NCBI RefSeq assembly: GCF_001436255.1
Contig: NZ_AZEI01000049.1
Location: 9,529 to 73,528, forward strand
DNA: 64,000 nucleotides
From: Lentilactobacillus rapi DSM 19907 = JCM 15042
GTDB lineage: Bacteria; Bacillota; Bacilli; Lactobacillales; Lactobacillaceae
Reading direction: 5' to 3'
Every line of letters begins with the position of its first letter. The first letter of the stretch is position 1. The position numbers were made by a program, and so were the translations under genes. Shown here in pieces: positions 3,969-58,318 of this stretch. The notes beneath the pieces were generated by a model. The model ran no database searches, had not been told where the DNA came from, and saw nothing but the letters and a program-made list of their open reading frames with translations.

Positions 3969-5396
3969 ATGAAAGAGAAAGACGGTAAGTTAGGCTTAAT
4001 GGAACTCATTGGCCTCGTTGTCGGATCAATCATCGGTGGTGGTGTATTCAACTTAATGCACGATATGGCCGTCGGTGCTGGTCCTGGTGCGATCATTATC
4101 GGCTGGATCATTACCGCGATTGGAATGGTCATGTTGGCGATGACCTTCCAGAACTTGATCATGAAGCGGCCGGATTTGGATGCCGGGATTTATAGTTACG
4201 CGGAAGCCGGTTTTGGTAAGTACATGGGCTTTAACTCTGCCTGGGGTTATTGGCTGTCCGCATGGCTTGGCAACGTTGGTTACGCGACCCTACTGATGAG
4301 TGCGGTCGCTTACTTCCTACCAGTCTTTGGTGATGGACAAAACATTTGGTCGATCATTGCAGCGTCCTTTATCTTGTGGGCCTGTCACTTTATGATTCTT
4401 CGTGGGGTTGAGTCCGCATCATTTGTCAACGTTGTGATTACTGTTGCTAAATTGATTCCAATTTTCTTATTTATCATTATTGTTTTATTCGCATTCAAGC
4501 TGAACATGTTTACAGGCAATTTCTGGTTCACCCCATCTGGTAAATTCCAGTTTGCGGATGTCATGGCGCAAGCAAAGAGCACCATGCTGGTAACCGTATG
4601 GGTATTTATCGGAATTGAAGGCGCGGTTGTCTTTTCTGGCCGGGCTCGTAAACGTTCAGATGTTGGTAAAGCAACCGTTCTTGGAATTATTACTGTTATT
4701 CTGATTTATATGTTAATTACGTTGCTGTCATTTGGTGTTATGAGCCGAGCAGGCTTGTCACACTTGACTCAACCAGCAATGGCCGACTTGTTGGAAAGCA
4801 TCGTTGGTAAATGGGGCTCAGCAGTTGTTAACCTGGGGTTGATTATCTCAGTTGTCGGTGCTTGGCTCTCATGGACCATGTTCGCTGGTCAATTGCCATA
4901 TGAAGCCGCCAAAGAGGGATCCTTCCCGAAGATGTTCGCCAAGGAAAACAAGAATGGCGCACCAATTACCTCATTGACTGTCACAAATGTGTTGGTTGAA
5001 TTGTTCATGTTTACGTATTTGATTACGGCGCAGGCTTATAACTTCTTCTATTCAATCGCCAGTGCCGCAATTCTGATTCCGTACGCATTCTCAGCATTCT
5101 ATCAACTGAAGTACTCGGTCCAAAGTGATCATGGCAAGGGCCGAACCGGTAACATTATTATTGGAATTATCTCAAGTATTTACGCCTGCTGGTTGCTGTT
5201 CGCTGCAGGAGCCAATTTCTTATTGCTGATGTCATTATTGTTCGCTGCAGGGATTCCAGTATTTTGGATCTTACAGAAACGAGACAATCATGCTAAGAAA
5301 GTATTTGGCCCAATCGAAATGACGCTTGCAATCGTGATTGTGATCGCTGCCATCTATACAATTTATGGTTTGGTAGTGGGAAAGATTACATTTTAA
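3969..5396 (+). CDS. arcD: Arginine/ornithine antiporter-like APC-family permease (second copy)
   Basis: A 475-residue polytopic membrane protein, a paralogue of the permease at 507-1949. The N-terminus carries the APC signature GSIIGGGVFNL near residue 17, and the two proteins share the order of membrane segments and many loop blocks. AAAAGGAG precedes the ATG by 8 nt. It is co-directional with the Crp/Fnr gene (15 bp gap) and probably co-transcribed. Two antiporters may serve different exchanges, for example arginine/ornithine and arginine/citrulline or agmatine-type; this is inference. A long hairpin repeat begins directly at the stop codon. Confidence 0.83.
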   Translation: MKEKDGKLGLMELIGLVVGSIIGGGVFNLMHDMAVGAGPGAIIIGWIITAIGMVMLAMTFQNLIMKRPDLDAGIYSYAEAGFGKYMGFNSAWGYWLSAWLGNVGYATLLMSAVAYFLPVFGDGQNIWSIIAASFILWACHFMILRGVESASFVNVVITVAKLIPIFLFIIIVLFAFKLNMFTGNFWFTPSGKFQFADVMAQAKSTMLVTVWVFIGIEGAVVFSGRARKRSDVGKATVLGIITVILIYMLITLLSFGVMSRAGLSHLTQPAMADLLESIVGKWGSAVVNLGLIISVVGAWLSWTMFAGQLPYEAAKEGSFPKMFAKENKNGAPITSLTVTNVLVELFMFTYLITAQAYNFFYSIASAAILIPYAFSAFYQLKYSVQSDHGKGRTGNIIIGIISSIYACWLLFAAGANFLLLMSLLFAAGIPVFWILQKRDNHAKKVFGPIEMTLAIVIVIAAIYTIYGLVVGKITF

Positions 5397-5515
5397 GTGA
5401 GCGACGAGCAACGGTTTGACGTGGTTATATAAGGGACCTCGGGCTAAAATCCTGGTTTTGGATTTTGGCCCGAGATCCCTTATATATTGAGCGTCAGTTG
5501 CGTCGGAGCGGTCCT
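5397..5515 (+). repeat. Long-hairpin interspersed repeat, type I copy
   Basis: A 119-nt near-perfect palindrome that starts at the base after the ArcD stop. The conserved parts are ATATAAGGG paired with CCCTTATAT and AAAATCC paired with GGATTTT around a TGG loop; the segment CTCGGGC/GCCCGAG and the outer GACG/CGTC pairing are private to this copy. A sister copy is at 57563-57679. It has no U-tract of a usual terminator and no coding potential. Confidence 0.85.
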
Positions 5516-5520
5516 AAAAG

Positions 5521-5638
5521 AGTGAGTGGAGCAAAGCGGTTAATAACCGAAACATAAGTCGCCCTATTCAGAAATCCCGGGGTTTGGATTTTTGAATAGG
5601 GTGCTTATGTGCAGGTTATTGCTTTGCGGAGCGGTCCT
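5521..5638 (+). repeat. Long-hairpin interspersed repeat, type II copy
   Basis: Full type II element: 5' part AGTGAGTGGAGCAAAGCGG, then TAATAACC pairing with GGTTATT, CATAAGT pairing with GCTTATG, private stem CCCTATTCA/TGAATAGGG, and the conserved apex AAATCCC with GGATTT. It ends with GCTTTGCGGAGCGGTCCT. Its arms pair over almost the whole length. Confidence 0.9.
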
Positions 5639-5640
5639 CC

Positions 5641-5755
5641 GCTGAATGTAGAATCGAAGATTCCACAAAAGTAAATTGGAAGTCCTCAATCCAGGGTTTA
5701 GATTTTTGAATAAGGTGCTTATGTGCAGGTTGCGGAGCGGTCCTACTTCTATGTA
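5641..5755 (+). repeat. Degenerate type II hairpin repeat (mainly 3' half)
   Basis: The right half (GATTTTTGAATAAGGTGCTT, then ATGTGCAGGT, GCGGAGCGGTCCTA) matches type II elements. The left half is eroded and only partly complementary. It lies between two complete copies, suggesting repeated insertion or tandem duplication at this place. Confidence 0.65.
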
Positions 5756-5759
5756 GATT

Positions 5760-5879
5760 AGGACAGCTCCGCAAAGCATAAGCTTGCACCTAAGCCTCCA
5801 CCACCAAAAATCCAAACCCAGGATTTCTGGTGGTGGAAACTTAGGCTCCAGCTTATAACCGCTTTGCGTCGCTCACTTG
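5760..5879 (-). repeat. Long-hairpin interspersed repeat, type II copy, inverted
   Basis: On the minus strand it reads AAGTGAGCGACGCAAAGCGG to GCTTTGCGGAGCTGTCCT. Private paired segments are ATAAGCT/AGCTTAT, CCTAAGT/CTTAGG and CCACCACC/GGTGGTGG; the apex keeps AAATCC and GGATTT. It ends 66 bp before the HAD phosphatase start. Confidence 0.88.
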
Positions 5880-17818: not shown

Positions 17819-17884
17819 TTTTTCACCTACAAAAACAATTATAGTGTCAAGTATAGTCAATTGGGGTGGGGATGTAAACGTCAG

Positions 17885-17957
17885 AGTGTGAAGCTAAGCG
17901 GTTAATAATCGGAGTGTCAGCATGTTTTTTGGTTACAGAGACTTATATGTCGGTTTC
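17885..17957. repeat. Degenerate remnant of the long-hairpin repeat
   Basis: AGCTAAGCGGTTAATAATCGG on the left faces CGGTTTCTAATTACTTAGCT on the right, an imperfect inverted repeat whose arms resemble the outer part of type II elements. The apex is lost. Confidence 0.45.
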
Positions 17958-17964
17958 TAATTAC

Positions 17965-19977
17965 TTAGCTCTGCCCATTATCCTGCATAAAGACCATCTG
18001 ATCCGTCGAAATACTTTGATTCAACTGGTCTGAAATATTTCGCGAAATTTTCTCCGTTCTGAAGGCATCTGCCACATACGTGTACTCATATTGGAAAGCT
18101 TGAATTAGCAGGCTTTCTCGCCGGCCATTGGCTTCATCTGAGTTGTCGAAGCGCAGGTGGCGGAAATTATACCCGTTCCTGACAAAATTGACTGAAGCCG
18201 TGTTATGAGCCGTTTCAATGCTATCCAGATAATCATTCACCTTTTCGAACGCCATTTCTTCGATCAGCAAGCTCATCTGACGGATTTGTTTCCCCTTTTC
18301 GACCAGCTGGTTAAACTTTTCGGATCCGCGGCCTTCCTGACTTTGGGCGTTAGATTGTCGGCCTCGACGTTTGACTTCTTTTTTGGTAACTTTTCGCTTC
18401 TTGAACCGGTGGGTTTGTAAGCGGATCAGATATTTGATCCTTGTCCAAAAGCCGGAACCCCGGCTGGACGCAGAAACCATTCTTCTCGAAAAAATATTTG
18501 CAAACTGTTGGGAGATCTTGCCTTCATTCAATGCATCGACAACGACTTGGGCTTCAATTTCTCTGGCATGGGTCATGATATCCCGAATTTCGGTCCGATT
18601 GGTTGCCCGGTTGTTCTTTTGACTGTTGAGCATATCGATGATGTAATTGCGGTCAACCAGTGAGATAGTGCCATCTGATTTAACTTTGGAGATCGCATAA
18701 GCCACCATTTCACCTTGATATTTTTTGAAGGTTCCCTGATCTTGATCTTTCTTTTGAGGCAGCAAAGCCGGCAAGATAATTGTTGGAACCAGCAGGCTGA
18801 GTAAAATCACAATCGTGGCCACAAAGATCAACTGACTTCGATAAGGAAAGGACTTACCAAACGCCGTAAATGGCAGGGATAACGCCATTGACAAGGTTAT
18901 CGTGCCATGGACGCCACCGATTGCTGTCAATAAGGCCTCTTTTAAAGTGGCGTCTTGGTGATGGTGGGTTTGAACCAGATTGAATTTGACCCATAGAAAC
19001 CGAATGATGACCATTAACAGATAAATCCCAGCACCAAATAAGCCAAGTTCTAAGATGAGGATGTCAGAATAGGGCATGATTTGGGCAATAACTGTTGGTA
19101 AGGTAACGCCCAGCAAAACGAAGACGATGCCGTTTAATAGGTTAGCAGCAATTTGCCAGGTGGCATTGGTGACTAGCCGAACATTGGTGGAAGTCAGTTT
19201 TAACTGGCTCTGGTTGATACCATGCATGATGCCGGCGGAAACCACCGCTAAAATACCCGAACAGCCGAGAATTTCAGAGATCAAATAAATGGCAAATGGC
19301 GTCATTAAGCTGAAAGGCACAATTACACTGGTGGTGTCCATGGATTGATTCACCAGAAACGTCCGTAATTTGACGAAAAGTAGGCCAGCAAATAGCCCGA
19401 CTAGGATGCCGCCAAAAAAGCTGATCACAAATTTCGTGAGGCCCTCAGTGAATGAAAAATCACCGGTTAGAAAAGCTGCGACGGCCAAATTGAAAATCAC
19501 GATTCCAGACGCATCGTTAAATAGGGATTCGCTTTCCAGAATACCGTGGACGTTACTTGGAACCTCAACGTTTTGGGTAATGGACTTAAGGGCAACAGAA
19601 TCAGTTGGGGTGACAATCGCCGCCAGTGCAAAACACAACGCCAATGGAATCGTTGGCATCAAGAAATGGGCGGCCCCTCCGATGACAACCGCGGTGATCA
19701 CTGCTAAATACACGGCCATTGAAAAAATATGACCAATGGACTGCCGAAACTGATTGGAATCGGTATTTTGCCCATCATTAAACATCAGTGGCGCAATGAT
19801 ACCCAGCATGAAGATCTCTGGAAAAAGGGAGAAATCGTGAAAGATCGGAAGTAACGACAGAATTAACCCACAGCCAATTTGATAAAAAGTGAGTGGGATT
19901 TTTGGAAAAATCGGGTAAATCATATTTGAGATAATGGCGGATACAATTAGCAGTGCAACCGAGTAGAAGGCTTCCAA
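17965..19977 (-). CDS. CPA1-family Na+/H+ antiporter
   Basis: A 670-residue cation-proton antiporter. The first ~410 residues hold about 12 membrane helices with the family pattern IVTPTDSVAL and ESLFNDASGIVIF, where the aspartates belong to the ion site. The last ~260 residues form a charged cytoplasmic tail with helices, longer than the core requires and typical of NhaP/YjcE-like members. The start is TTG at 19977, fixed by GAGGTG 5 nt upstream. It would export Na+ in exchange for protons. It is divergent to the spx-like gene. Confidence 0.9.
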   Translation of the reverse strand: MEAFYSVALLIVSAIISNMIYPIFPKIPLTFYQIGCGLILSLLPIFHDFSLFPEIFMLGIIAPLMFNDGQNTDSNQFRQSIGHIFSMAVYLAVITAVVIGGAAHFLMPTIPLALCFALAAIVTPTDSVALKSITQNVEVPSNVHGILESESLFNDASGIVIFNLAVAAFLTGDFSFTEGLTKFVISFFGGILVGLFAGLLFVKLRTFLVNQSMDTTSVIVPFSLMTPFAIYLISEILGCSGILAVVSAGIMHGINQSQLKLTSTNVRLVTNATWQIAANLLNGIVFVLLGVTLPTVIAQIMPYSDILILELGLFGAGIYLLMVIIRFLWVKFNLVQTHHHQDATLKEALLTAIGGVHGTITLSMALSLPFTAFGKSFPYRSQLIFVATIVILLSLLVPTIILPALLPQKKDQDQGTFKKYQGEMVAYAISKVKSDGTISLVDRNYIIDMLNSQKNNRATNRTEIRDIMTHAREIEAQVVVDALNEGKISQQFANIFSRRMVSASSRGSGFWTRIKYLIRLQTHRFKKRKVTKKEVKRRGRQSNAQSQEGRGSEKFNQLVEKGKQIRQMSLLIEEMAFEKVNDYLDSIETAHNTASVNFVRNGYNFRHLRFDNSDEANGRRESLLIQAFQYEYTYVADAFRTEKISRNISDQLNQSISTDQMVFMQDNGQS

Positions 19978-21665: not shown

Positions 21666-21714
21666 ACTAGTTGTTTCTGGCTTCATTAAGTACAATTGGG
21701 TTAGAACAACTTTT

Positions 21715-21807
21715 CCAAGTAGAAGTCTCAATGTATGCATCTCTGAGAGAAATCCCAAGCCCAGGAATTTTTTTGAGGTGTTTACACGTTGACTTCTAAC
21801 CACTTGG
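21715..21807. repeat. Diverged long-hairpin repeat in the leader of the secreted-protein trio
   Basis: Outer arms CCAAGTAGAAGTC (with a small offset) and GACTTCTAACCACTTGG face each other, and the apex AAATCC with GGAATTT is retained, as in type II elements. The middle stem is imperfect. It lies 28 bp before the first start of the trio and may affect its expression. Confidence 0.55.
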
Positions 21808-21834
21808 ATCCATTCATTAGGGGGGAATTAATCA

Positions 21835-22674
21835 ATGAAAAAATTAATTGCAATTTTAACGGCGACTGCAGCCGCCAGTATCTTAGCATTTGCAGGACAA
21901 AGTACCACGGCTCAAGCTTCATGGTCGACTGGAACTAAAACATTGTGGACCTTATTTGAGCCAAATGGTGATCCAGATTGGGCCCGGCTATTTTCGACCG
22001 CAGATAGTGTGAAGGCGGGTAAAAATGGTTATGTCTGGAACTATAGTCACACCAAGCGGATTCACAACTTAAAGAACTATCCGAATACAACTTGGTATGC
22101 AGTTCGGGGGATTGCTAAGAATAAGCACGTCTATTATCGAATTTCTAATCCTAATTCAACTGTTAAGGGATTGGTTTGGAGTGGCTATGTCAAGCCGTAT
22201 GCAACTAAGACAGCCAAGGACTTTAAGACGGCTGACCAGTTTAATAATTATCTTCAAACTGAACCATCTCAAAAGCTCACTCGGGCAGTGTTACGACAGT
22301 TACCGAACATTCCGGTTAGTTTTGAATTATCGAAGTATGCGGCCTATCGATTTGCCCAATTTCCAAAGCAAATTACTAATTTCACTGACATTACGCCAAT
22401 TAGTACGTTGACGCTGCCAAAAACAGACTTTGCTTCAATCAAAAACTTTCAAACGGATTTAAATTCTCCCGGGGATGCTCAATTGGGAACCTACTGGGCA
22501 TTAACGTACGGGCAACCCGTTAATTCACGGGCTGAGAAAATCATTGAAGCCCTTAATGATCACCAGATTGATTTATCACAATTTGATACCACTAATGGTA
22601 ACTGGCGAATTGGCGTTAATATGAATGATGGTCAGTGGCCAATGACGTTGATTATTGCTAAAGAAACGGATTAA
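21835..22674 (+). CDS. Secreted protein of unknown function, first of three tandem paralogues
   Basis: A 279-residue exported protein: basic start, hydrophobic core and cleavage site AQA before SW (about residue 29). After about 40 residues comes a block shared by all three neighbours: NYSHTKRIHNLKNYPNTTWY, then HVYYRISN and KGLVWSGYVK, with the look of a small SH3-like cell-wall or surface module. The C-terminal ~150 residues contain SKYAAYRF, LTYGQPV and NWRIGVNM and match no family I recognise. No LPxTG anchor is seen. GGGGGG precedes the ATG. Confidence 0.75.
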   Translation: MKKLIAILTATAAASILAFAGQSTTAQASWSTGTKTLWTLFEPNGDPDWARLFSTADSVKAGKNGYVWNYSHTKRIHNLKNYPNTTWYAVRGIAKNKHVYYRISNPNSTVKGLVWSGYVKPYATKTAKDFKTADQFNNYLQTEPSQKLTRAVLRQLPNIPVSFELSKYAAYRFAQFPKQITNFTDITPISTLTLPKTDFASIKNFQTDLNSPGDAQLGTYWALTYGQPVNSRAEKIIEALNDHQIDLSQFDTTNGNWRIGVNMNDGQWPMTLIIAKETD

Positions 22675-22747
22675 TTTTGGCTTCAAGTAAAGCATTACTA
22701 AAGCTGATTCAATACTTGGAAATGAATTCATAATACGAGGAGTTTTG

Positions 22748-23584
22748 ATGATGAAAAAATTAATTGGTATTCTAATCACCACAGTTGGCCTAGGTCTGCT
22801 TGGCCTTTCGGGAGCTGGCACGACTGCTCACGCATCTTGGCTTACTGGAACAAAAACGCTGTGGACAATGACGGCAGCCGATGGCGAGACCAATTTGGCA
22901 CAGGTTTATTCAACCAACGCGCCGTCTTCTAAGAAGGCCTACATGTGGAACTATAGCCATACGAAGCGAATTCATAATTTGAAAAATTATCCCAACACCA
23001 CATGGTATGCGATTCGGGGGATTTCTAAGAATAAACACGTTTATTATCGGATTTCCAATTACAACCAAACCATTAAGGGGCTTGTTTGGAGTGGTTATGT
23101 CAAGAAGTTCGCAAACAAGACGGCTGAGGATTTTAAAACAACTGATCAATTCCTAAACTACATCAAAACTGAACCTTCTCAGAAATTGGCCCGGGCCGTT
23201 TTGAAACGATTGCCTAATCTACCTGTGAACCTGCAGTTATCGAAATATGCGGCTGGCAGATTTGATTTATTCCCTCAAACAATTTCAGGCTTTACTGACT
23301 TAACACCGCTTACGACCCTGACCTTACCTAAATCAGATTTCAGTACGATCAAGGGCTTTGATAGTGGCATGACCCCAACCGCTAGTCAGCAATTAGGCTG
23401 GTATTGGGGCTTAACATATGGCCAACCGGTTGCCCCGCGGGCCGATAAGCTGACTGAAGCGATTAAGGCGCATAATTTAGATATGTCTCAGTTTGATTCC
23501 ACCAAGGGCAATTGGCAGATCGGGATTAATTTGAATGATAATCCGTCGATGGGAACTGTGATTATTGCTAAGGAAACGGATTAA
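22748..23584 (+). CDS. Secreted protein of unknown function, second of three tandem paralogues
   Basis: A 278-residue homologue of the preceding product, collinear over the full length, including signal peptide (AHA before SW), the NYSHTKRIHNLKNYPNTTWY block and the C-terminal LTYGQPVAPRA region. GAGGAG stands 5-8 nt before tandem ATGs at 22748 and 22751; a TTG at 22745 is less likely. The gap to the first gene is 73 bp without a terminator. Both proteins end in IIAKETD, and the copies therefore arose by recent duplication. Confidence 0.75.
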   Translation: MMKKLIGILITTVGLGLLGLSGAGTTAHASWLTGTKTLWTMTAADGETNLAQVYSTNAPSSKKAYMWNYSHTKRIHNLKNYPNTTWYAIRGISKNKHVYYRISNYNQTIKGLVWSGYVKKFANKTAEDFKTTDQFLNYIKTEPSQKLARAVLKRLPNLPVNLQLSKYAAGRFDLFPQTISGFTDLTPLTTLTLPKSDFSTIKGFDSGMTPTASQQLGWYWGLTYGQPVAPRADKLTEAIKAHNLDMSQFDSTKGNWQIGINLNDNPSMGTVIIAKETD

Positions 23585-23626
23585 TTTTGGCTACAAATTA
23601 AATTATTGATAAAAAAGGGTGGTTAT

Positions 23627-24451
23627 ATGAAAAAGTTTTGGGGAATGGTAATGATTGCGGTCACAGCTGGATTTTTATATTCAGCGGCAAATTCACCTGC
23701 CCAGGCGTCATGGATTAGTGGCACCCAAAAGTGGTTTACGACGATTGGAAAGTATCCGGATGCCAATGAGTTTTTATATGCGGTGAAGAATCCCAACAAG
23801 AATGCTTACATGTGGAACTATAACCATACGAAGCGCGTTCATAATCTAAAGAATTACAAAAATACCACTTGGTACGTTACCCACGGTATTAAAAAGGGTA
23901 AATCGGTGTATTATCGCATCACTAATTACAATTCCACGGTTAAAGGATTAGTTTGGAGTGGCTATCTCCAACACTTGAAAACATGGGGCGCGAGTGCTTT
24001 TAAAACGTCGGCTGAATTCAAGCAGTATGTCAAAACGTCTCCTTCAGCAAAATTGACTCGGGCAATTATGAAACAATTACCGAATATACCATTGGATTAT
24101 CAACTTTCACGGTACGCTGATGGCCGATACGGGGATTTTCCGAAGACTATTCCGGGCTATTCTGATATCACATCTTTGGGAACGCTCAATTTACCGAAGA
24201 AGGATTTTGCAACAATCAAGAACTTTCCAAATAACTACGATCCGGATCAAGCCAACTATGAACAGCAGTTGAATTGGTACTGGGCATTGACATTTGGCCA
24301 ACCGGTAGCGCCAAGAGCTGCTAAGTTAAAAGAAGCCCTCAAAGTTAACAATATCAATTTGAACGATTATAAATCCGGTGACTGGGTCGTTGGTATTAGT
24401 GTATTTGAAGGTATTGCAAATGGAACGGTGATTATTGCAAGGAAGAGTTAG
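23627..24451 (+). CDS. Secreted protein of unknown function, third of three tandem paralogues
   Basis: A 274-residue homologue, more diverged than the first two: signal peptide with AQA before SW, NYNHTKRVHNLKNYKNTTWY block, KGLVWSGYLQ, and LTFGQPVAPRAAKL near the end. The final part is rebuilt (VVGISVFEGIANGTVIIARK). The frame opens at 23606, but AAGGGTGG just before the ATG at 23627 and the signal peptide favour the later start. A long-hairpin repeat begins directly after the TAG. Confidence 0.75.
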   Translation: MKKFWGMVMIAVTAGFLYSAANSPAQASWISGTQKWFTTIGKYPDANEFLYAVKNPNKNAYMWNYNHTKRVHNLKNYKNTTWYVTHGIKKGKSVYYRITNYNSTVKGLVWSGYLQHLKTWGASAFKTSAEFKQYVKTSPSAKLTRAIMKQLPNIPLDYQLSRYADGRYGDFPKTIPGYSDITSLGTLNLPKKDFATIKNFPNNYDPDQANYEQQLNWYWALTFGQPVAPRAAKLKEALKVNNINLNDYKSGDWVVGISVFEGIANGTVIIARKS

Positions 24452-24587
24452 AGTGCGGAGTAAAGCAGAGCGTGGAACAAAGCGATTAGAAATCGGAGCG
24501 TAAGTCGCCGTAACAGTAAATTCCTGGGCTTGGAATTTGCTGTTACGGTGCTTACGTGCAGATTTCTGCTTTGTGGAGCGCATTTTT
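24452..24587 (+). repeat. Long-hairpin interspersed repeat, type II copy
   Basis: Begins at the base after the trio's last stop. Paired private segments are AGAAATC/GATTTCT, GCGTAAGT/GCTTACGT and GTAACAG/CTGTTAC; the apex is AAATTCC with GGAATTT. The 5' end contains a short duplication (GCGGAGTAAAGC then GTGGAACAAAGC). Confidence 0.88.
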
Positions 24588-24682
24588 TCCGGGTAATGGT
24601 AAACCAAAATTTCGTAGGTCTGGGAATTCCTGATAAAGGTGCTTACATGCAGGTTGCTGCCTGATGTAGCACATTTTCTCCA
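24588..24682 (+). repeat. Partial long-hairpin repeat (3' half)
   Basis: GGGAATTCCTGATAAAGGTG, CTTACATGCAGGTTGCTGC and GTAGCACATT correspond to the right half of a type II element. The left arm is not preserved. Confidence 0.55.
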
Positions 24683-26950: not shown

Positions 26951-27961
26951 ATGGCAACGGAAGATTCAATTTATGATATTACAATAATTGGCGGTGGACC
27001 CGCTGGAATGTTTGCCGGATTTTATGCCGGGTTAAGGGACGCAAAGACCCAAATTATTGAAAGCTTGTCCGAATTGGGTGGTCAGGTGAGTGCATTGTAC
27101 CCGGAAAAGACAATTTTGGACGTCGGCGGCTATCCAAACATCAAAGCCAGGAATTTGGTCGAGGAATTGGAAAAGCAGCTTAAACAGGCTGATACAGACG
27201 TTAAGCTGAATCAAACGGTGACGGATGTCGATAAAATCGATGAAGGGTACCAGATCACCACTAATAGAGGAACGAGTAAAACTAAAGCGATTATCATTGC
27301 GACCGGAGTGGGCGCCTTTAATCCGCGTAAATTAGCAGTGGATAACGGTGAACAGTTCGAAGGCAAGAGCTTGTTTTATAGTGTGAAAAACTTGGCGCAT
27401 TTCCGTGATCACGAAGTCTTGGTTGCCGGAGGCGGGGATGCGGCGATTGATGAAGCTTTGCTGCTGAATTCAGTTGCCAAGAAGGTTTATTTATTGCATC
27501 GTCGCGACAAGTTCAGGGCAATGGAACACAGTGTAACTCAACTGGTGCAGTCGTCAATTGAACTGGTAACCCCTTATTTGATTCAAAAGCTCACTCAGCA
27601 AGATGATGGCCGGGTGAAAGTTTCTGCTAAGAAGATGAAAACTGAAGAAATGAAAGATCTCGTGGTGGATGACTTGGTTGTCAACTATGGCTTCATCGCT
27701 CAAGACGATGCGCTAAATGGTTGGACAGTTCACCCAGAAACGGATCATGGAACCGTTAAAGTGGCAACCAATACGCTGACGGATCAGGATAACATTTATG
27801 CGATCGGGGATGTTTCAAAGTATGACGGCAAGCAACCATTGATCGCCACCGCCCTAGGAGAAGCGCCCATTGCAGTCAATGCCGCAATGAAGCACATTTA
27901 TCCGGACAGACGGGGACCAGTTCACAGTACCTCAATCAGTGAGCACGCCAAGCGGCATTAA
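26951..27961 (+). CDS. Ferredoxin-NADP reductase, thioredoxin-reductase-like type
   Basis: A 336-residue flavoprotein. The FAD-binding GGGPAGMFAGFYAG and the NAD(P)-binding VAGGGDAAIDEALLL are clear, and the C-terminal YAIGDVSKYDG ends the second FAD element. The CxxC of thioredoxin reductases is absent, which places it in the YumC-type ferredoxin/flavodoxin-NADP reductase group. GGAGG lies 7 nt before the ATG and the gene forms a pair with prsW. Confidence 0.92.
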   Translation: MATEDSIYDITIIGGGPAGMFAGFYAGLRDAKTQIIESLSELGGQVSALYPEKTILDVGGYPNIKARNLVEELEKQLKQADTDVKLNQTVTDVDKIDEGYQITTNRGTSKTKAIIIATGVGAFNPRKLAVDNGEQFEGKSLFYSVKNLAHFRDHEVLVAGGGDAAIDEALLLNSVAKKVYLLHRRDKFRAMEHSVTQLVQSSIELVTPYLIQKLTQQDDGRVKVSAKKMKTEEMKDLVVDDLVVNYGFIAQDDALNGWTVHPETDHGTVKVATNTLTDQDNIYAIGDVSKYDGKQPLIATALGEAPIAVNAAMKHIYPDRRGPVHSTSISEHAKRH

Positions 27962-50239: not shown

Positions 50240-50255
50240 GATTTACCTCCGAGGT

Positions 50256-50310
50256 TTTAGGACAGCTCTACAAAGCAGGGGTCTGCGTATAAGCACTGAG
50301 TTACATAGAT
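50256..50310 (-). repeat. Partial long-hairpin repeat (3' half)
   Basis: On the minus strand, CAGTGCTTATACGCAGACC then CCTGCTTTGTAGAGCTGTCCTA matches the right end of type II elements. The left half is missing. Confidence 0.6.
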
Positions 50311-50312
50311 TA

Positions 50313-50430
50313 ATGGGGCTCCGCAAAGCAGTAATCTGCGCGTAAGCACCTTCTCCAAAAATCCCAGAACCGGGGATTTCCGGAGAAGGAGACTTACACT
50401 CCGATTACTAACCGCTTTGCTACGCACACT
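50313..50430 (-). repeat. Long-hairpin interspersed repeat, type II copy
   Basis: Minus-strand element starting inside or directly at the purA stop codon. Paired private segments are AGTAATC/GATTACT, GTGTAAGT/GCTTACGC and CCTTCTCC/GGAGAAGG; the apex is AAATCCC with GGGATTT. Confidence 0.9.
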
Positions 50431-51709
50431 ACCACACTTTTTCCACAACATTCGTCTGCTCTCTGTCAGGGCCGACCGAGAAAGTTGCGTAAGGAACACC
50501 GACTGCTTTTTGGACATGGTTCAAATAATTCTGAGCATTGGCTGGTAATTCATCAAATATGTGACACTTGGTGATGTCTTCGTCCCAGCCAGGGAGTTCT
50601 TCATAAACGGGTTTGCAATTGTCGAGTTCCCGTAAAGTAGCGGGATAATGATCAATCTTTTGACCGTTTAATTCATAAGCAACACAGATTTTTAAAGTTT
50701 TAATGCCAGTCAAAATATCTAAACAGTTCAGAGCTAAATGGGTATAACCACTGACTCTGGCAGAATGTCTGAGAACCACACTGTCAAACCAGCCGATTCG
50801 ACGTGGCCGTTTCGTCACAACGCCGTATTCGTGGCCGACTTCTCGGATGTGGTCGCCAGTTGCGTCCTTTAGTTCAGTTGGGAAGGGACCTTCGCCAACT
50901 CGGGAGGTGTAAGCTTTGCAGACGCCGATGACATTTTTGATCCGGTTAGGACCAATGCCAGTTCCGACAGCTGCGCCACCTGCACTTGGGTTCGAAGAAG
51001 TGACAAATGGATAAGTGCCGTGGTCGACATCTAACATGACACCCTGAGCACCTTCAAACAGCACGTTTTTATCATCATCTAATGCGTTGTTAATTACATA
51101 GGAAGCATCAATGACGTATGGGCGAATCCGATCGGCGTATTCATTGTATTCATTAAAGATCGTATCGAAGTCCAACGGCTTAGTATCATAGATTTTTTCT
51201 AGCAATTCATTTTTGATCTTGAGATTGCTGCGAAGTTTTTCTTCAAATGATTTTTTGTCAATTAAATCAGCAATTCGAATTCCGATTCGTTCGTATTTAT
51301 CCATGTAGGCTGGGCCGATTCCCTTATTGGTTGTTCCAATCTTGGAATCTTTCTTTTGTTCCTGCAGGCCGTCGAATAGAATATGGTAGGGCATGATCAC
51401 CTGTGCCCGGTTGGAAATCCGGAGGTTCTCAGTACTGATACCATCTTTCTTCAAATTGTCCATTTCGTTGATCAAAGATTTGGGATTAACCACCACGCCG
51501 TTACCAATGACGCTGTACTTTTCCTGGTCAAAAATGCCTGACGGGATCAGTTGCAAGTGGTAACTATGGCCGTTAAATACAATGGTGTGGCCGGCATTAT
51601 CGCCGCCTTGATAGCGAGCGATAATATCTGCACTTTGGCCGAAGAAATCGGTGATTTTACCCTTTCCTTCGTCGCCCCATTGACTTCCAACAATCACAAT
51701 AGATGACAT
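50429..51709 (-). CDS. purA: Adenylosuccinate synthetase
   Basis: Joins IMP and aspartate with GTP hydrolysis, first step from IMP to AMP. The 426-residue protein starts with [15 protein letters not shown] (P-loop and catalytic Asp), has the IMP loop [24 protein letters not shown] and the C-terminal SVGPDREQT. The frame opens at 51778, but AGAGGTG before the ATG at 51709 and the family start [12 protein letters not shown] decide. It is divergent to purB and shares its operator. Confidence 0.96.
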
Positions 51710-51822
51710 ATGAACACCTCTATATTTTATTGCCAGGTCTGTACCCAGCATTTTTAATTCTACCAACATGACAGTCATTAATCAACAAAAACGTTAATAA
51801 TTTTAGGAGTTAAAACGGTTAA

Positions 51823-51874: not shown

Positions 51875-51937
51875 ATGGTCAAAACATGAACTATATGCTA
51901 TCATTATGATGTTAATATTTAGTGGAAAGGAAACGAC

Positions 51938-53233
51938 ATGATAGATAGATATTCTTTACCAGAAATGAGCAAAATTTGGTCCCTGCATAATCAATATGAC
52001 TCATGGCTTAAAGTAGAAATTGCGATTGATGAGGCTTGGGCTAAGCTAGGTAAGATCCCCGCTGAAGACGTTGAAAAGATTAAAAAGAATGCGAAGTTTG
52101 ATGTCGATGGCATCGCTGAAATTGAGGCGGTCACCCATCACGATATTGTTGCCTTTACTCGGGATGTTTCAAAGTCACTTGGTCCGGAAAAGAAATGGGT
52201 CCATTATGGTGTCACCAGCACAGATGTTGTGGACACAGCTTATGGCGTTCGGATTAAGCAAGCCAACAAGATTATTAAGGAAGATATTGATCATTTTATC
52301 GATGTAATCGCTAAGCAAGCGAAGAAGTATAAGGATACGGTTATGATTGGCCGGACCCATGGTGTTCAAGCTGAGCCAACAACTTTTGGACTGAAATTAG
52401 CCCGTTGGTATTCAGAAATGAATCGGAATAAGCGCCGATTTGCGATTGCATCAAAAGAATTGGAAGCTGGCCAAATTTCTGGGGCCGTTGGAACTTTTGC
52501 CAACGTGCCACCGTTTGTTGAACAGTATGTATGTGATTCGCTCGGATTGCATGCCCAAGAAATTACCAGCCAGATCCTGCCACGGGATTTGCATGCCGAT
52601 TACATTTCAACCCTGGCATTAATTGCCACCAGCTTGGAAGAGTTTGCGACTGAAATCCGTGGTCTACAACGTTCTGAAATTCATGAAGTTGAAGAGCATT
52701 TTGATGCTGGTCAAAAGGGCTCTTCCGCAATGCCTCATAAGAAGAACCCAATTGGCTCAGAGAATATCTGCGGGTTGGCAAGGGTGGTTCGTGGTCATAT
52801 GATTACCGCCTATGAAGATGTCCCATTGTGGCATGAGCGGGATATTTCGCATTCTTCCGCAGAACGAATCATCATTCCAGATACATTGATCTTATTAGAC
52901 TACATGCTCCATCGCTTCTCCCGAATTTTGGAACGATTGACCGTCTTCCCAGAACGAATGAAGAAAAACATGGGCTTAACGTATGGCTTGATCTATAGCC
53001 AACGCGTCATGTTAAAATTGATTGATTCAGGCATGACCCGAGAACAGGCATATGATTTAGTTCAACCACTGACCAAAAAATCATGGGATGAAGGTGTTCA
53101 ATTCCGTGACTTGGTCGAAGCCGATAAAAAAATTACTGACGCCTTGAGCGAAGACCAAATTGCTGACGCCTTTGATTATCATTATCACATTCGTCATGTG
53201 GATGAGATATTTGCCCGAGTGGGATTGGAATAG
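51938..53233 (+). CDS. purB: Adenylosuccinate lyase
   Basis: Cleaves fumarate from SAICAR and from adenylosuccinate. The 431 residues contain the fumarase/aspartase signature [14 protein letters not shown] (about 262), the N-terminal [11 protein letters not shown] and the catalytic His region [22 protein letters not shown] precedes the ATG by 7 nt. With divergent purA it forms the AMP branch. Two hairpin repeats follow; the intrinsic terminator lies only at about 53560. Confidence 0.96.
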
Positions 53234-53356
53234 TCAAGTGAGCGGATCCAGGCGGTTAGAAGTCGGAGTGTAAGTCTCCTTTGAGAGAAATTCCGGGTTT
53301 GGGAATTTTTCTCAAAGGTGCTTACATGTAGACTTCTGCTTGGAGGAGCTGTCCTA
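53234..53356 (+). repeat. Long-hairpin interspersed repeat, type II copy
   Basis: Begins directly after the purB stop. Paired private segments are AGAAGTC/GACTTCT, GTGTAAGT/GCTTACAT and CCTTTGAG/CTCAAAGG; the apex is AAATTCC with GGAATTT. Confidence 0.9.
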
Positions 53357-53480
53357 CTAAGTGACCGGAGTAAAGCGGTTTAGAAACTGGAGCCTAAGTC
53401 GCCTTTTGTGGAAATCCCCGGTTTTGGGATTTTTGCAGAAGGTGCTTAGGTGGAAGTTTCTGCTTTACGCAGCTGTCCTA
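53357..53480 (+). repeat. Long-hairpin interspersed repeat, type II copy (second in tandem)
   Basis: Direct tandem neighbour of the previous copy but with its own stem sequences: AGAAACT/AGTTTCT, CCTAAGT/CTTAGG and CCTTTTGTGG against GCAGAAGG. The end is GCTTTACGCAGCTGTCCTA. A third fragment (right end only) follows at 53484-53519. Confidence 0.9.
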
Positions 53481-53557
53481 AAACAAGTGAGTAGAGCCCT
53501 GCTTGGAGGAGCTGTCCTCAGACCCAGTCCAGTTTCTTCCCAATCAAAATAAAAAAT

Positions 53558-54112: not shown

Positions 54113-54290
54113 TTGATATATAGATTAGGACTGTTCCGCAAAGCAGAAAGCTACACATAAGCACTCTAAGCGGAATGGTGTTCATGAAGCCAAAAGATAG
54201 ACTTCGTGTTCTACATAGCAAAATAGTGCTTCGCAAAACAGGAACTTGCGCATAAGCACCTTCCTTATAAACCCTCAAACCCGGGATTGG
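54113..54290 (-). repeat. Two degenerate long-hairpin repeat fragments
   Basis: On the minus strand, GTGCTTATGTGTAGC then GCTTTGCGGAACAGTCCTAA (54118-54166) and GGTGCTTATGCGCAAGTTCC then TGTTTTGCGAAGCAC (54212-54260) correspond to right halves of type II elements; the left arms are eroded. Confidence 0.6.
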
Positions 54291-54303: not shown

Positions 54304-54438
54304 ATATACAGATTATAGGACTGCCTCGCCAAGCAATAACCTGCGCATAAGCACTCCAAGCAAAAATCCCCAAGACCAGGATTTCTACTTGGAGCAACTT
54401 ATGCTCCGGTTACTCCCGCTTGGCTCCGCACACTTACT
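54304..54438 (-). repeat. Long-hairpin interspersed repeat, type II copy
   Basis: Minus-strand element reading GTAAGTGTGCGGAGCCAAGC to GCTTGGCGAGGCAGTCCTA. Paired segments AGTAACC/GGTTATT, GCATAAGT/GCTTATGC and GCTCCAAG/CTTGGAGTGC; apex AAATCC with GGGATTT. It is not next to a stop codon. Confidence 0.82.
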
Positions 54439-54450
54439 TTTGCACACAAC

Positions 54451-54568
54451 AAAAAAGATAAGGCGGGGGAGGCCTTATCTTTAGTATCAATATTCTGAGG
54501 GGAATATGAATATGAAAAGCAACAAATTAATGGGGTGATTAATTTATCACTCATTATTGGGGGGTGAG
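54451..54568 (+). repeat. G-loop hairpin unit A (possible structured RNA)
   Basis: Three hairpins in a row: arms GATAAGGC and GCCTTATC around GGGGGAG; ATATTC and GAATAT around TGAGGG; ATTAAT and ATTAAT around GGGGTG. A fourth weak one (CTCA/TGAG) shows GGGGGG. A 10-codon ORF (ATG 54506 to TGA 54538, MNMKSNKLMG) uses GAGGGGA in the second loop as ribosome site. Related units B and C follow. Confidence 0.6.
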
Positions 54569-54650
54569 AAGAAATAAACATTGTTTATCTCTTTCCATAC
54601 TTTTAATATACAGGACAAATATTACTAAAAAATGGAGAAAATATGATTTT

Positions 54651-54666
54651 TTTGTGAACTCACAAA
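54651..54666. promoter_or_regulatory. Palindrome in the G-loop hairpin region
   Basis: TTTGTGA-AC-TCACAAA is a perfect inverted repeat, extended by T/A on both sides, and may bind a dimeric regulator. A similar GTGAGTT/AACTCAC pair, seven bases apart, lies after unit C at 55139-55159. Confidence 0.35.
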
Positions 54667-54776
54667 AAGGAAGTGGAAAAACTTGCTGTGTCACGATATG
54701 TATTTTAGAAGAAAAAAGAACTGTGGCAAATAAAAGTCATTTTGTCGCAGTTCGCTGAATATGTTGTTCTTTTTAC

Positions 54777-54802
54777 TTTTGTCTATTGGGGGAGAGACAA
54801 AA
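54777..54802 (+). repeat. Single hairpin with G5 loop before unit B
   Basis: Arms TTTTGTCT and AGACAAAA enclose ATTGGGGGAG. It follows another imperfect hairpin (GAACTG and CAGTTC, 54718-54753). It repeats the theme of an exposed GGGGGA in a loop. Confidence 0.5.
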
Positions 54803-54816
54803 TCAGTTCTTGAAGA

Positions 54817-54917
54817 AAAAAGGATAAGACACGGGGATGCCTTATCTCAAAATACCTATATTCTAGGGGAAGAATATGAATACTACAGTAACAAACTAAA
54901 GGGGGATTCAATTTGCT
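54817..54917 (+). repeat. G-loop hairpin unit B (possible structured RNA)
   Basis: Arms GATAAGACA and TGCCTTATC around CGGGGA; ATATTCT and AGAATAT around AGGGGA; a weak ACTAAA and TTCAAT around GGGGGA. The 7-codon ORF MNTTVTN runs from ATG 54876 to TAA 54899. Strongly similar to unit C. Confidence 0.65.
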
Positions 54918-54985
54918 ACCGATATGAAGCAATTTGCTCGCTTCATAATTTGTACTTTCAGTATATCTGGAGATTGTTGCTAAAG

Positions 54986-55013
54986 ATTGAATAAATTGTG
55001 AAGAAAGTGTGAA
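54986..55013 (+). promoter_or_regulatory. Triple direct repeat with 11-bp period before unit C
   Basis: ATTGAA-N5-TGTGAA-N5-TGTGAA, i.e. three 6-bp half-sites each separated by 5 bp. This spacing is that of OmpR-family response regulators; read on the other strand it is TTCACA repeated, close to PhoP boxes, while the forward form is near WalR-type TGTWAH repeats. The binder is inference. Confidence 0.5.
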
Positions 55014-55027
55014 CTTTTGAATTTAAG

Positions 55028-55130
55028 GAAGAAAAAAGATAAGGCACGGGGATGCCTTATCTCAAGATACCTATATTCTAGGGGAAGAATATGAATACAA
55101 AAGTAATAAATTAAAGGGGGATTTAATCTA
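55028..55130 (+). repeat. G-loop hairpin unit C (possible structured RNA)
   Basis: The best-preserved unit: GATAAGGCA (55038-55046) and TGCCTTATC (55053-55061) around CGGGGA; ATATTCT and AGAATAT (55073-55092) around AGGGGA; ATTAAA and TTTAAT (55110-55127) around GGGGGA. The 7-codon ORF MNTKVIN is at 55091-55114. A further AAAGGGGGA and TTG with three codons follow. Confidence 0.65.
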
Positions 55131-55197
55131 TTGCTAACGTGAGTTATTAGTAAACTCACATTTCAAATATAACTATAATCGAAGAATATGGTCAAAG

Positions 55198-55233
55198 ATT
55201 GAACAAATTGTGAAGAAAGTGTGAACTTTGACA
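55198..55233 (+). promoter_or_regulatory. Second triple direct repeat, followed by TTGACA
   Basis: ATTGAA-N5-TGTGAA-N5-TGTGAA again (55198-55225), almost identical to the copy at 54986, and TTGACA at 55228-55233 directly after it. A good -10 at the right distance is not visible. It lies about 80 bp before the hydrolase start. Confidence 0.5.
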
Positions 55234-55312
55234 AAAAACGCAAAAAATAGCCATCTTTTTGTCGGTTGTAGTACAGTGAGGGGTAAAAGAACGAAAGGAG
55301 GGAGGGGATTCC

Positions 55313-56935: not shown

Positions 56936-57562
56936 GTGCAACAACGAACAGCTTATTCGGAAGTCGAATTTGAGAAACACGTTGAAAATAATCGTCTATG
57001 GTTTAATCGCTTTCGGACGACCCGCTCATTTCAAAAATTAAATAAGCCAGAAAAAGCAGCTGCCTTTTATATTACTCAGGCATTCGTCGGTTTGGCTTAT
57101 AAATATCAACTACGGAGTCCGAGGCGGTATACTGCAAAGTCTGTTACAGAAGTAGTCTCAGAATTATTTCCCCAAAAAATTGCGGCAACCAATGTTTTCT
57201 TCACGTCGGTCATCCCGGTGCTGAAGCGCTACATTGTCTTCTTAGGTGCCCAGCATAAAATCAGTAATACGAGTACCTTAGTGAGAGCTCTGGAGGCAAT
57301 TGACGTCGGTGATCTGCTGGATGGTCATAAGAATGTATCAAAGTGGGATCCCCACAAGCGAGTGGGGATGAAATACTTGATGGGTTACACGAGAGAAATC
57401 GACCCAAAGCGAGTGAAAGCCTACGAAGAAGATTATAACATGGGAGTCCCGTTGAGGTTCTGCTTTGATTTAAGTGTCAACAGAGTCCCAAAGAATATTA
57501 TTATGCTAACTGAGAGTTTGAGGGAGAAGTTTGAACAGATATTGTATGAGAAAAACAAGTAA
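56936..57562 (+). CDS. Hypothetical cytoplasmic protein
   Basis: A 208-residue, basic, mostly helical protein (RLWFNRFRTTRSFQKLNKPE, VSELFPQKIAATNVFFTSV, DLLDGHKNVSKWDPHKRVG). No membrane helix, signal or known motif is visible. GTG start at 56936 with GAGGGGGCGG upstream, so it appears genuinely expressed. A type I hairpin repeat begins directly at the stop. Confidence 0.65.
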   Translation: MQQRTAYSEVEFEKHVENNRLWFNRFRTTRSFQKLNKPEKAAAFYITQAFVGLAYKYQLRSPRRYTAKSVTEVVSELFPQKIAATNVFFTSVIPVLKRYIVFLGAQHKISNTSTLVRALEAIDVGDLLDGHKNVSKWDPHKRVGMKYLMGYTREIDPKRVKAYEEDYNMGVPLRFCFDLSVNRVPKNIIMLTESLREKFEQILYEKNK

Positions 57563-57679
57563 GCGTGCGGAGAAAAACGCTTTGGTGCGGTCATATAAGG
57601 GCTCCTGAATTAAAATCCTGGTTTTGGATTTTGATTCAGGAGCCCTTATATGTTTAGCACCAGTTTTTCGGAGCACTAC
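57563..57679 (+). repeat. Long-hairpin interspersed repeat, type I copy
   Basis: Starts at the base after the TAA. ATATAAGGG/CCCTTATAT and AAAATCC/GGATTTT are shared with the copy at 5397, while CTCCTGAAT/ATTCAGGAG and GGTGC/GCACC are private. Outer ends GCGGAGAAAAAC and GTTTTTCGGAGC resemble type II ends. Confidence 0.88.
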
Positions 57680-57778
57680 TAATCCATGTAATGGCGGACC
57701 AAAAATCCTGGTTTTGGGATTTAAATCAGGAACCTTTTGGAAATTAGTGTCAATTGCGTCCGAGCACGTTATCTGATA
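57680..57778 (+). repeat. Degenerate type I hairpin repeat
   Basis: AAAAATCCTGGTTTTGGGAT apex followed by AAATCAGGAACC and TTGCGTCCGAGCA, matching type I elements; the left arm is reduced. Confidence 0.55.
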
Positions 57779-58196: not shown

Positions 58197-58318
58197 AAGT
58201 GTGCGGAGCAAAACGGTTAGAAACTGGATCATAAGTCTCCTTATTCAGAAATCCCGGTTTTGGGGATTTTTGAATAAGGTGCTTATGTGCAAGTTCCTGC
58301 TTTACGGAGCAGTCCTAC
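58197..58318 (+). repeat. Long-hairpin interspersed repeat, type II copy
   Basis: AAGTGTGCGGAGCAAAACGG to GCTTTACGGAGCAGTCCTA. Paired segments AGAAACT/AGTTCCT, CATAAGT/GCTTATG and CCTTATTCA/TGAATAAGG; apex AAATCCC with GGGGATTT. It lies in a divergent intergenic region, 87 bp before a small gene. Confidence 0.9.

Follow-up and report, generated by a model that had tools for sequence, protein, structure and literature searches.

A dispersed non-coding hairpin element at gene edges in Lentilactobacillus rapi, probably mobile and recognised by its structure

A non-coding element of about 122 to 125 nt, which folds on its sense strand into one long hairpin, was dispersed over the genome of Lentilactobacillus rapi (G000; 2.85 Mb in 87 contigs), and is best explained as a mobile element recognised by its structure (probability about 0.65). 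Eleven clear copies of the sense-strand hairpin and one weak remnant were present in the window, the stretch of 64,000 nt that was analysed, as located by a search with covariance model R1. The earlier note on this DNA had described about a dozen copies with conserved steps and copy-specific pairing blocks, which agrees with the 11 clear copies plus fragments. Model R1 was built from eight copies of the window (starting at 53236, 50310, 58197, 24466, 5520, 53359, 54315 and 5758), so that the independent finds were those at 57561, 5395, 21701 and, weakly, 17882. The arrays found genome-wide, their placement at gene edges and the bias to the sense strand go beyond what had been noted before. If the explanation is correct, food lactic acid bacteria harbour a mobile hairpin in large numbers, often a few bases from a stop codon or about 20 bases from a start codon, which would shape mRNA ends and perhaps expression.

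Region 5397-5879 contained three full hairpin copies and one 3' half copy. A copy of a variant subtype (5395-5517, +; E 2.1e-18) started at the TAA stop of ORF 3969-5396, and was followed by the second unit of the same array (5520-5640, +; E 1.6e-35), by the 3' half copy (5691-5745, +; direct repeats D1 and D3, and sequence) and by a copy in the opposite orientation (5758-5878, -; E 9.5e-34). The weak remnant was located at 17882-17982 (+; E 3.2e-4), and a divergent copy at 21701-21819 (-; E 2.1e-17). The neighbouring ORFs 21835, 22745 and 23606 (about 280 aa each; 21835-24451) had a 171-nt repeat in common (D2; 73-77% identity), and therefore look like tandem paralogues. After the TAG of ORF 23606-24451, a 5' stub (24452-24465, +) was read, from its sequence and from comparison with locus L164 of the sister species G003, as part of an older copy. 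A full copy (24466-24587, +; E 1.1e-35) appears to be nested in that older copy, with a 3' half copy (24617-24670, +; repeat D3) as its remainder, so that both halves would remain at 24452-24670; nesting would explain the 3' half fragment at this place, and perhaps other half fragments.

The end of ORF 26951-27961 (27934-27961) looked as though a decayed copy of the element (AGTGAGC...GCCAAGCGG) had become part of the reading frame; a two-copy array was present at the matching place in L. kisonensis (G009). On the minus strand, a 3' half copy (50249-50296; repeat D4) lay next to a full copy (50310-50431; R1) that started at the TAG stop of ORF 50429-51778(-). Shortly after the TAG of ORF 51938-53233, an array consisted of a first unit (53236-53357, +; E 2.2e-38), a second unit (53359-53481, +; E 3.7e-35) and a truncated third unit (53486-53518, +; repeat D11 and sequence). 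Two 3' half copies (54117-54164 and 54212-54259, both -; repeat D4) and a full copy (54315-54435, -; E 1.4e-34) followed. Three similar units, each made up of an inverted repeat of small size (AAGATAAGGC...GCCTTATCTT, or a near variant) and then a very short ORF-like stretch, were observed at 54440-55250; two of these inverted-repeat units (54817-54912 and 55032-55127) were direct repeats with 92% identity. Another copy of the variant subtype (57561-57682, +; E 1.6e-24) started at the TAA of ORF 56936-57562, and was followed by a partial copy (57702-57765, +; repeat D7) and by a full copy at 58197-58318 (+; E 4.3e-36).

At its base the hairpin had a short clamp, followed by a stem of 7 bp, a GGTT bulge that was conserved and lay on one side only, and a second 7-bp stem. 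Beyond the second stem there were a conserved GGA/GCA internal loop, three variable pairs and a TAAG/CTTA step, and the tip consisted of a variable 8-bp stem and an AAAT...ATTT apex. The foot read AAGTGAGC...GTCCTAA in the consensus of 150 G000 copies. The apex had been given in the earlier note as AAATCC/GGATTT; its conservation was confirmed, but some copies had AAATTCC/GGAATTT.

In the 150 aligned G000 copies, 96.6% of cells paired (vs. 81.6% in shuffles), and double-sided changes were counted in 1044 cells (vs. 315 in shuffles), with 34 of the 43 pairs showing double changes. Covariation was 0.472 (vs. 0.180 in shuffles, and at most 0.107 with the partner slid by 1 to 3 columns), in an alignment that leans towards the structure because it was fitted to the model and holds the eight training copies, and whose covariation scores are also inflated by kinship among copies. 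The proposal of a kept fold was supported. In 41 copies of several genera aligned with MAFFT, with the structure mapped from one member, 96.2% of the 24 outer pairs were paired and covariation was 0.630 (vs. 0.190 in shuffles); of the five measures used, that of further pair types was matched by 28 of 500 shuffles. This comparison did not extend to the distal stem, on account of its variable register (with the full structure, 19 of the 41 rows paired at only 70-81%). The 68 copies of G071, a genome of another genus, were 95.8% paired with a covariation of 0.311 (vs. 0.150).

The GGTT bulge, the GGA/GCA loop, the TAAG/CTTA step and the pairs flanking the bulge were conserved in the 41 cross-genus copies, and the other stem blocks varied. 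The second G of the bulge was present in 34 of the 41. The bulge also occurred as GTTT in more distant relatives, and the TAAG step was sometimes replaced there, with TTAA seen. The 8-bp block (columns 46-53) had 95 distinct sequences in the 150 G000 copies, with 0.01 to 1.23 bits per column.

At least 150 R1 matches were obtained in the whole of G000 (150 scored of 737 candidates). In the window plus 62 loci around matches, a set outside which some of the whole-genome matches fall, 183 copies were counted at E 1e-16. These 183 copies formed 91 arrays, of which 38 had one unit, 32 two, 9 three, 7 four, 4 five and 1 six. Units followed one another head to tail in the same orientation, repeating about every 125 nt, and were mostly 3 nt apart (28 of 50 such gaps in the set of 150 matches). 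Tandem neighbours (65 pairs; mean identity 0.78) were barely closer to each other than pairs taken at random (0.76), and had an identical 8-bp block in 3 of the 65 pairs (vs. 1.4% of random pairs). A partner at least 95% alike outside the own array was found for 64 of the 150 G000 copies, and 4 of 106 within-array pairs were at least 95% alike. A seven-unit array of G009 (L173:8516-9391) contained a repeated two-unit block: unit 2 was identical to unit 4, units 1, 3 and 5 agreed at 118-120/122, and the last two units differed. Near-identical within-array pairs and the repeated block in G009 indicate that part of array growth is tandem duplication. Array polarity was not significant (first unit scoring above the last in 32 of 53; p = 0.17).

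Presence and absence of the element at orthologous sites was observed between relatives. The site at 51918-51925, just upstream of the Shine-Dalgarno sequence of ORF 51938-53233, was empty in G000 and in G003, and was filled with a two-copy array in G009, with junctions reading CTAA on both sides, and with three different copies in L. fungorum (G006). The site of the copy at 58197 was filled in G000 and empty in G009. Judged from these sequences, filled and empty orthologous sites point to mobility; precise loss could be an alternative source of an empty site, and the differences between relatives would stem not from loss alone but from movement.

Five orthologous copies were compared between G000 and G003. 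The copy at 50310 was nearly unchanged (119/122 identical), and the other four were 83/123, 86/123, 91/123 and 103/122 identical (67-84%) with different stem blocks; flank identity was 95-97% at three places, and at a fourth it was 91% over 92 nt. With whole stem blocks changed in four of the five, copies must often be replaced, exchanged or newly inserted. The four differing copies may have arisen by independent insertion into the same site or by exchange. The earlier view that the fold is kept while the sequence drifts is therefore doubtful as a whole account, with compensated drift being possible over longer times. In the more distant G009, the copy at 50310 was 103/122 identical (vs. 88% in its surroundings), with changes clustered in pairing blocks of both arms, a pattern that compensated drift would give, as would inner exchange.

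The 5' ends of most G000 arrays were located at gene edges. The 5' end (AGTGAGCG) was within -5 to +15 nt of a same-strand stop codon in 28 of the 91 arrays, and 15-27 nt from an opposite-strand start codon, just outside the Shine-Dalgarno sequence, in 42 of the 91 (19-22 nt in 32 of these 42). The remaining 21 of the 91 arrays were unassigned by the ORF rule, a few of them showing the Shine-Dalgarno complement by eye, and array L081, which was assigned to stop codons through a 79-aa ORF, resembles the start-codon class. With tightened distance windows, which were chosen after the G000 distances had been seen, 68 of the 91 5' ends were in the stop or Shine-Dalgarno class (vs. 3.8 expected from 27,300 random non-coding positions), and 23 of the 91 arrays were outside both classes. 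The 3' ends scored likewise gave 6 of 91. In five G000 arrays (L123, L127, L086, L096 and L139), the in-frame stop was the TGA inside the AGTGAG of the element (distance -5); the stop of the upstream gene is thus supplied by the element, and insertion probably rewrote the C-terminus.

G071 was examined after the windows had been chosen. The start-codon distance was 19-23 nt in 8 of its 46 arrays, 2 of the 46 belonged to the stop-codon class (distances of -9 and 19 nt), and the ORF rules placed 36 at no gene. Thirteen of 45 G071 arrays started right after a terminator-like T-run (vs. 0.9% of random positions, coding positions included), with the 13 cases counted over all G071 arrays. A terminator T-run preceded the array in 2 of the 91 G000 arrays. 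A replication-strand rule for orientation was not apparent in G071, a single contig, where both orientations were seen by eye in both halves among the matches listed.

On the sense strand, G.T pairs outnumbered A.C pairs (435 vs. 28), and still did so without three often-G.T positions and one mostly unpaired position (126 vs. 28). Arrays pointing away from a start codon, and so antisense to the gene, were 98.8% paired with 225 G.T and 16 A.C pairs (77 copies), and arrays after stop codons were 98.0% paired with 94 G.T and 5 A.C pairs (36 copies). The fold and its G.T pairs were thus kept on the sense strand whatever the direction of the copy relative to the gene. Because antisense-lying copies keep the sense fold equally well, the fold would be selected at a step common to all copies, which we infer to be most simply their own propagation, with the reservation that the copies are possibly young and undecayed. 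This bears on the explanation of the family as a functional structured RNA of mRNA ends, which would protect or regulate mRNA and whose placement would be selected and not targeted. The narrow range of positions, directly behind stop codons or some 20 nt ahead of start codons, is in agreement with such a role, as are the strong covariation, the conserved loops and one usually-G.U position, which are usual in RNA. However, copies before start codons lie antisense, so that A.C mismatches would replace the G.T pairs of the sense strand in a leader RNA; these copies nonetheless keep the sense fold as well as the others do, which argues against a role in mRNA, although youth could partly explain it. 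An essential role is disfavoured by the range of copy number in the genus (at least 149 down to 0) and by the empty orthologous sites. A structured RNA was considered an unlikely explanation, even if an RNA role may have been selected at some sites, which counts against the mobile interpretation.

A neutral repeat kept palindromic by template switching and ectopic gene conversion, with no specific enzyme and no selection on structure, would account for the G009/G000 changes at 50310 in matching blocks of both arms and for the weak linkage of the hairpin modules to each other in G000 copies. It does not predict conserved unpaired bases beside variable stems across genera, the predominance of G.T over A.C pairs on a single strand or the precise placement of 5' ends. 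The TAAG/CTTA step and the bulge should also change at the rate of the 8-bp block, and did not do so in the 150 G000 copies. Template-switch correction, named earlier as a rival, thus fails when taken alone to explain near-invariant steps and unpaired bases next to variable blocks, and was regarded as improbable. Even less probable was a route resembling that of retro-elements, in which element RNA is copied by a reverse transcriptase and joined to the ends of other transcripts. The position of 5' ends at possible RNA ends (after T-runs in G071, and about 20 nt before start codons) is consistent with this route, and an RNA stage would be in keeping with the frequent G.U pair. On the other hand, two of the genomes richest in copies, G006 and G009, lacked the reverse transcriptase domain RVT_1, there is no simple explanation for the antisense orientation at 5' ends of genes, and no promoters were demonstrated beyond the arrays: in a scan beyond arrays facing start codons, 16.7% of 42 flanks exceeded the 95% level of shuffles (mean 7.86 vs. 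7.61).

For the preferred explanation, a mobile hairpin recognised by its structure, the following steps are proposed. A host or trans-acting enzyme would recognise the single strand in its folded form, either ssDNA or an RNA subsequently copied back, and would do so by the bulge, the internal loop and the fixed steps more than by the stem letters. Insertion would take place next to short A/T-rich sequence at gene edges, namely stop codons, the 5' side of Shine-Dalgarno sequences and terminator T-runs, and also next to existing copies. Stem diversity might be produced by compensated changes together with exchange of the inner hairpin between copies. That the family represents a new mobile class, order-wide, read by the shape of its single strand, mobilised by an enzyme family without a known link to such hairpins, aimed at the edges of transcription and translation units, and rewiring UTRs and sometimes stop codons, is a tentative extension that we hold to be rather doubtful. 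The stems would then offer a natural library of covarying hairpins for testing directly which features of a folded strand are read by a recombinase or transposase, and the mobiliser, still missing, gives discovery work a concrete aim.

Searches for Y1_Tnp, integron integrase and RVT_1 in the 24 genomes of the genus yielded no positive candidate for the mobilising enzyme. Y1_Tnp (PF01797) was present in 7 of the 24, including G000. The two relatives with the highest numbers of candidates, G006 and G009 (at least 149 matches each), lacked it; a Y1 HUH transposase or RAYT was therefore rejected as mobiliser. The integron integrase (TIGR02249) was above the cut-off in none of the 24 genomes and was rejected likewise. 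Weaker TIGR02249 matches occurred in 23 of the 24 and also in all 14 control genomes, which indicates that other tyrosine recombinases are present and might still act as mobiliser. RVT_1 was found in 8 of the 24 genomes, and its absence from G006 and G009 led to rejection of a reverse transcriptase.

The family was also compared with known systems. REP, BIME and REPIN sequences are short dispersed non-coding palindromes, often clustered, outside genes, and the hairpin element resembled them as a dispersed and clustered short non-coding palindrome. It differed in length, at about 122 nt compared with the 20-40 nt stated for REPs in the abstract of PMC3733652, whose searched passages do not mention Lactobacillus. 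It also lacked the GTAG (or CGTC) tag at the foot, and had variable stem letters and array copies placed head to tail. Integron attC sites are strand-specific hairpins with unpaired bulges and free stem letters, located after stop codons and bounded by RYYYAAC and GTTRRRY boxes. The element was similar in outline, being strand-specific, bulged, free in its stem letters and found after stop codons, but its consensus ends were by eye without these boxes, no gene cassettes were noticed, and it also occurred before start codons and after terminators.

Bacterial MITEs are small non-autonomous mobile DNAs with hairpin potential. The suggestion of a MITE-like DNA hairpin was upheld in part: the element was small with hairpin potential, and copies look mobile from the filled and empty sites and from the distant near-identical partners, but no clear terminal inverted repeats were seen, the ends pairing only as a basal AGC/GCT clamp with the outer bases unpaired in the consensus. 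A target duplication was suggested by CTAA on either side of a single clean empty site, with the other sites ambiguous, and no parent transposon was found. Group IIC introns insert just after intrinsic terminators, a position taken by 13 of 45 arrays in G071 but by 2 of 91 in G000, and many G071 copies begin with GTGAG. In contrast to these introns, the element was 122 nt long, matched no ribozyme family in Rfam, and occurred in two copy-rich genomes (G006 and G009) without a reverse transcriptase. It differed from an intrinsic terminator in that the hairpin was followed by GTCCTAA and no T-run in the consensus. Since it lacked tested defining features of REP/RAYT, attC, MITE and group IIC intron, the family was filed in none of them.

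The family had not been recognised in the earlier note, and no Rfam match was found over the window; positions 53200-53520 gave only six microRNA families, below threshold. No description of the family was found in the papers searched, which included passages of PMC12306157 and covered few subscription papers. The searched passages of PMC2267715 give three initial stem-loop clusters for L. johnsonii and seven for E. faecalis.

The covariance model search of Lentilactobacillus and other Lactobacillaceae that the earlier note had suggested gave matches in 19 of 24 genomes of the genus, with none in the other 5, and in 97 of 301 genomes and 21 of 40 genera of the family with stricter filters. The cross-genus model R2 matched 50 of 395 genomes, 19 of 80 genera and six families of the order, which from the taxonomy of the named hosts we take to be Lactobacillales. 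Hosts of the exact pattern, among the matches listed, were Lentilactobacillus, Lacticaseibacillus, Secundilactobacillus and one unclassified Lactobacillus assembly. No match was found in viral contigs (one exact pattern) or in phage records (one copy as query), and a phage origin was rejected on these results. In a copper operon resembling copY-copB (L070, L071 and L312; genes named by eye), one hairpin was located just before copB in several genera. This hairpin matched 83 plasmid records, 78 of them with at least 95% identity, including records of Lactiplantibacillus, Listeria and Pediococcus.
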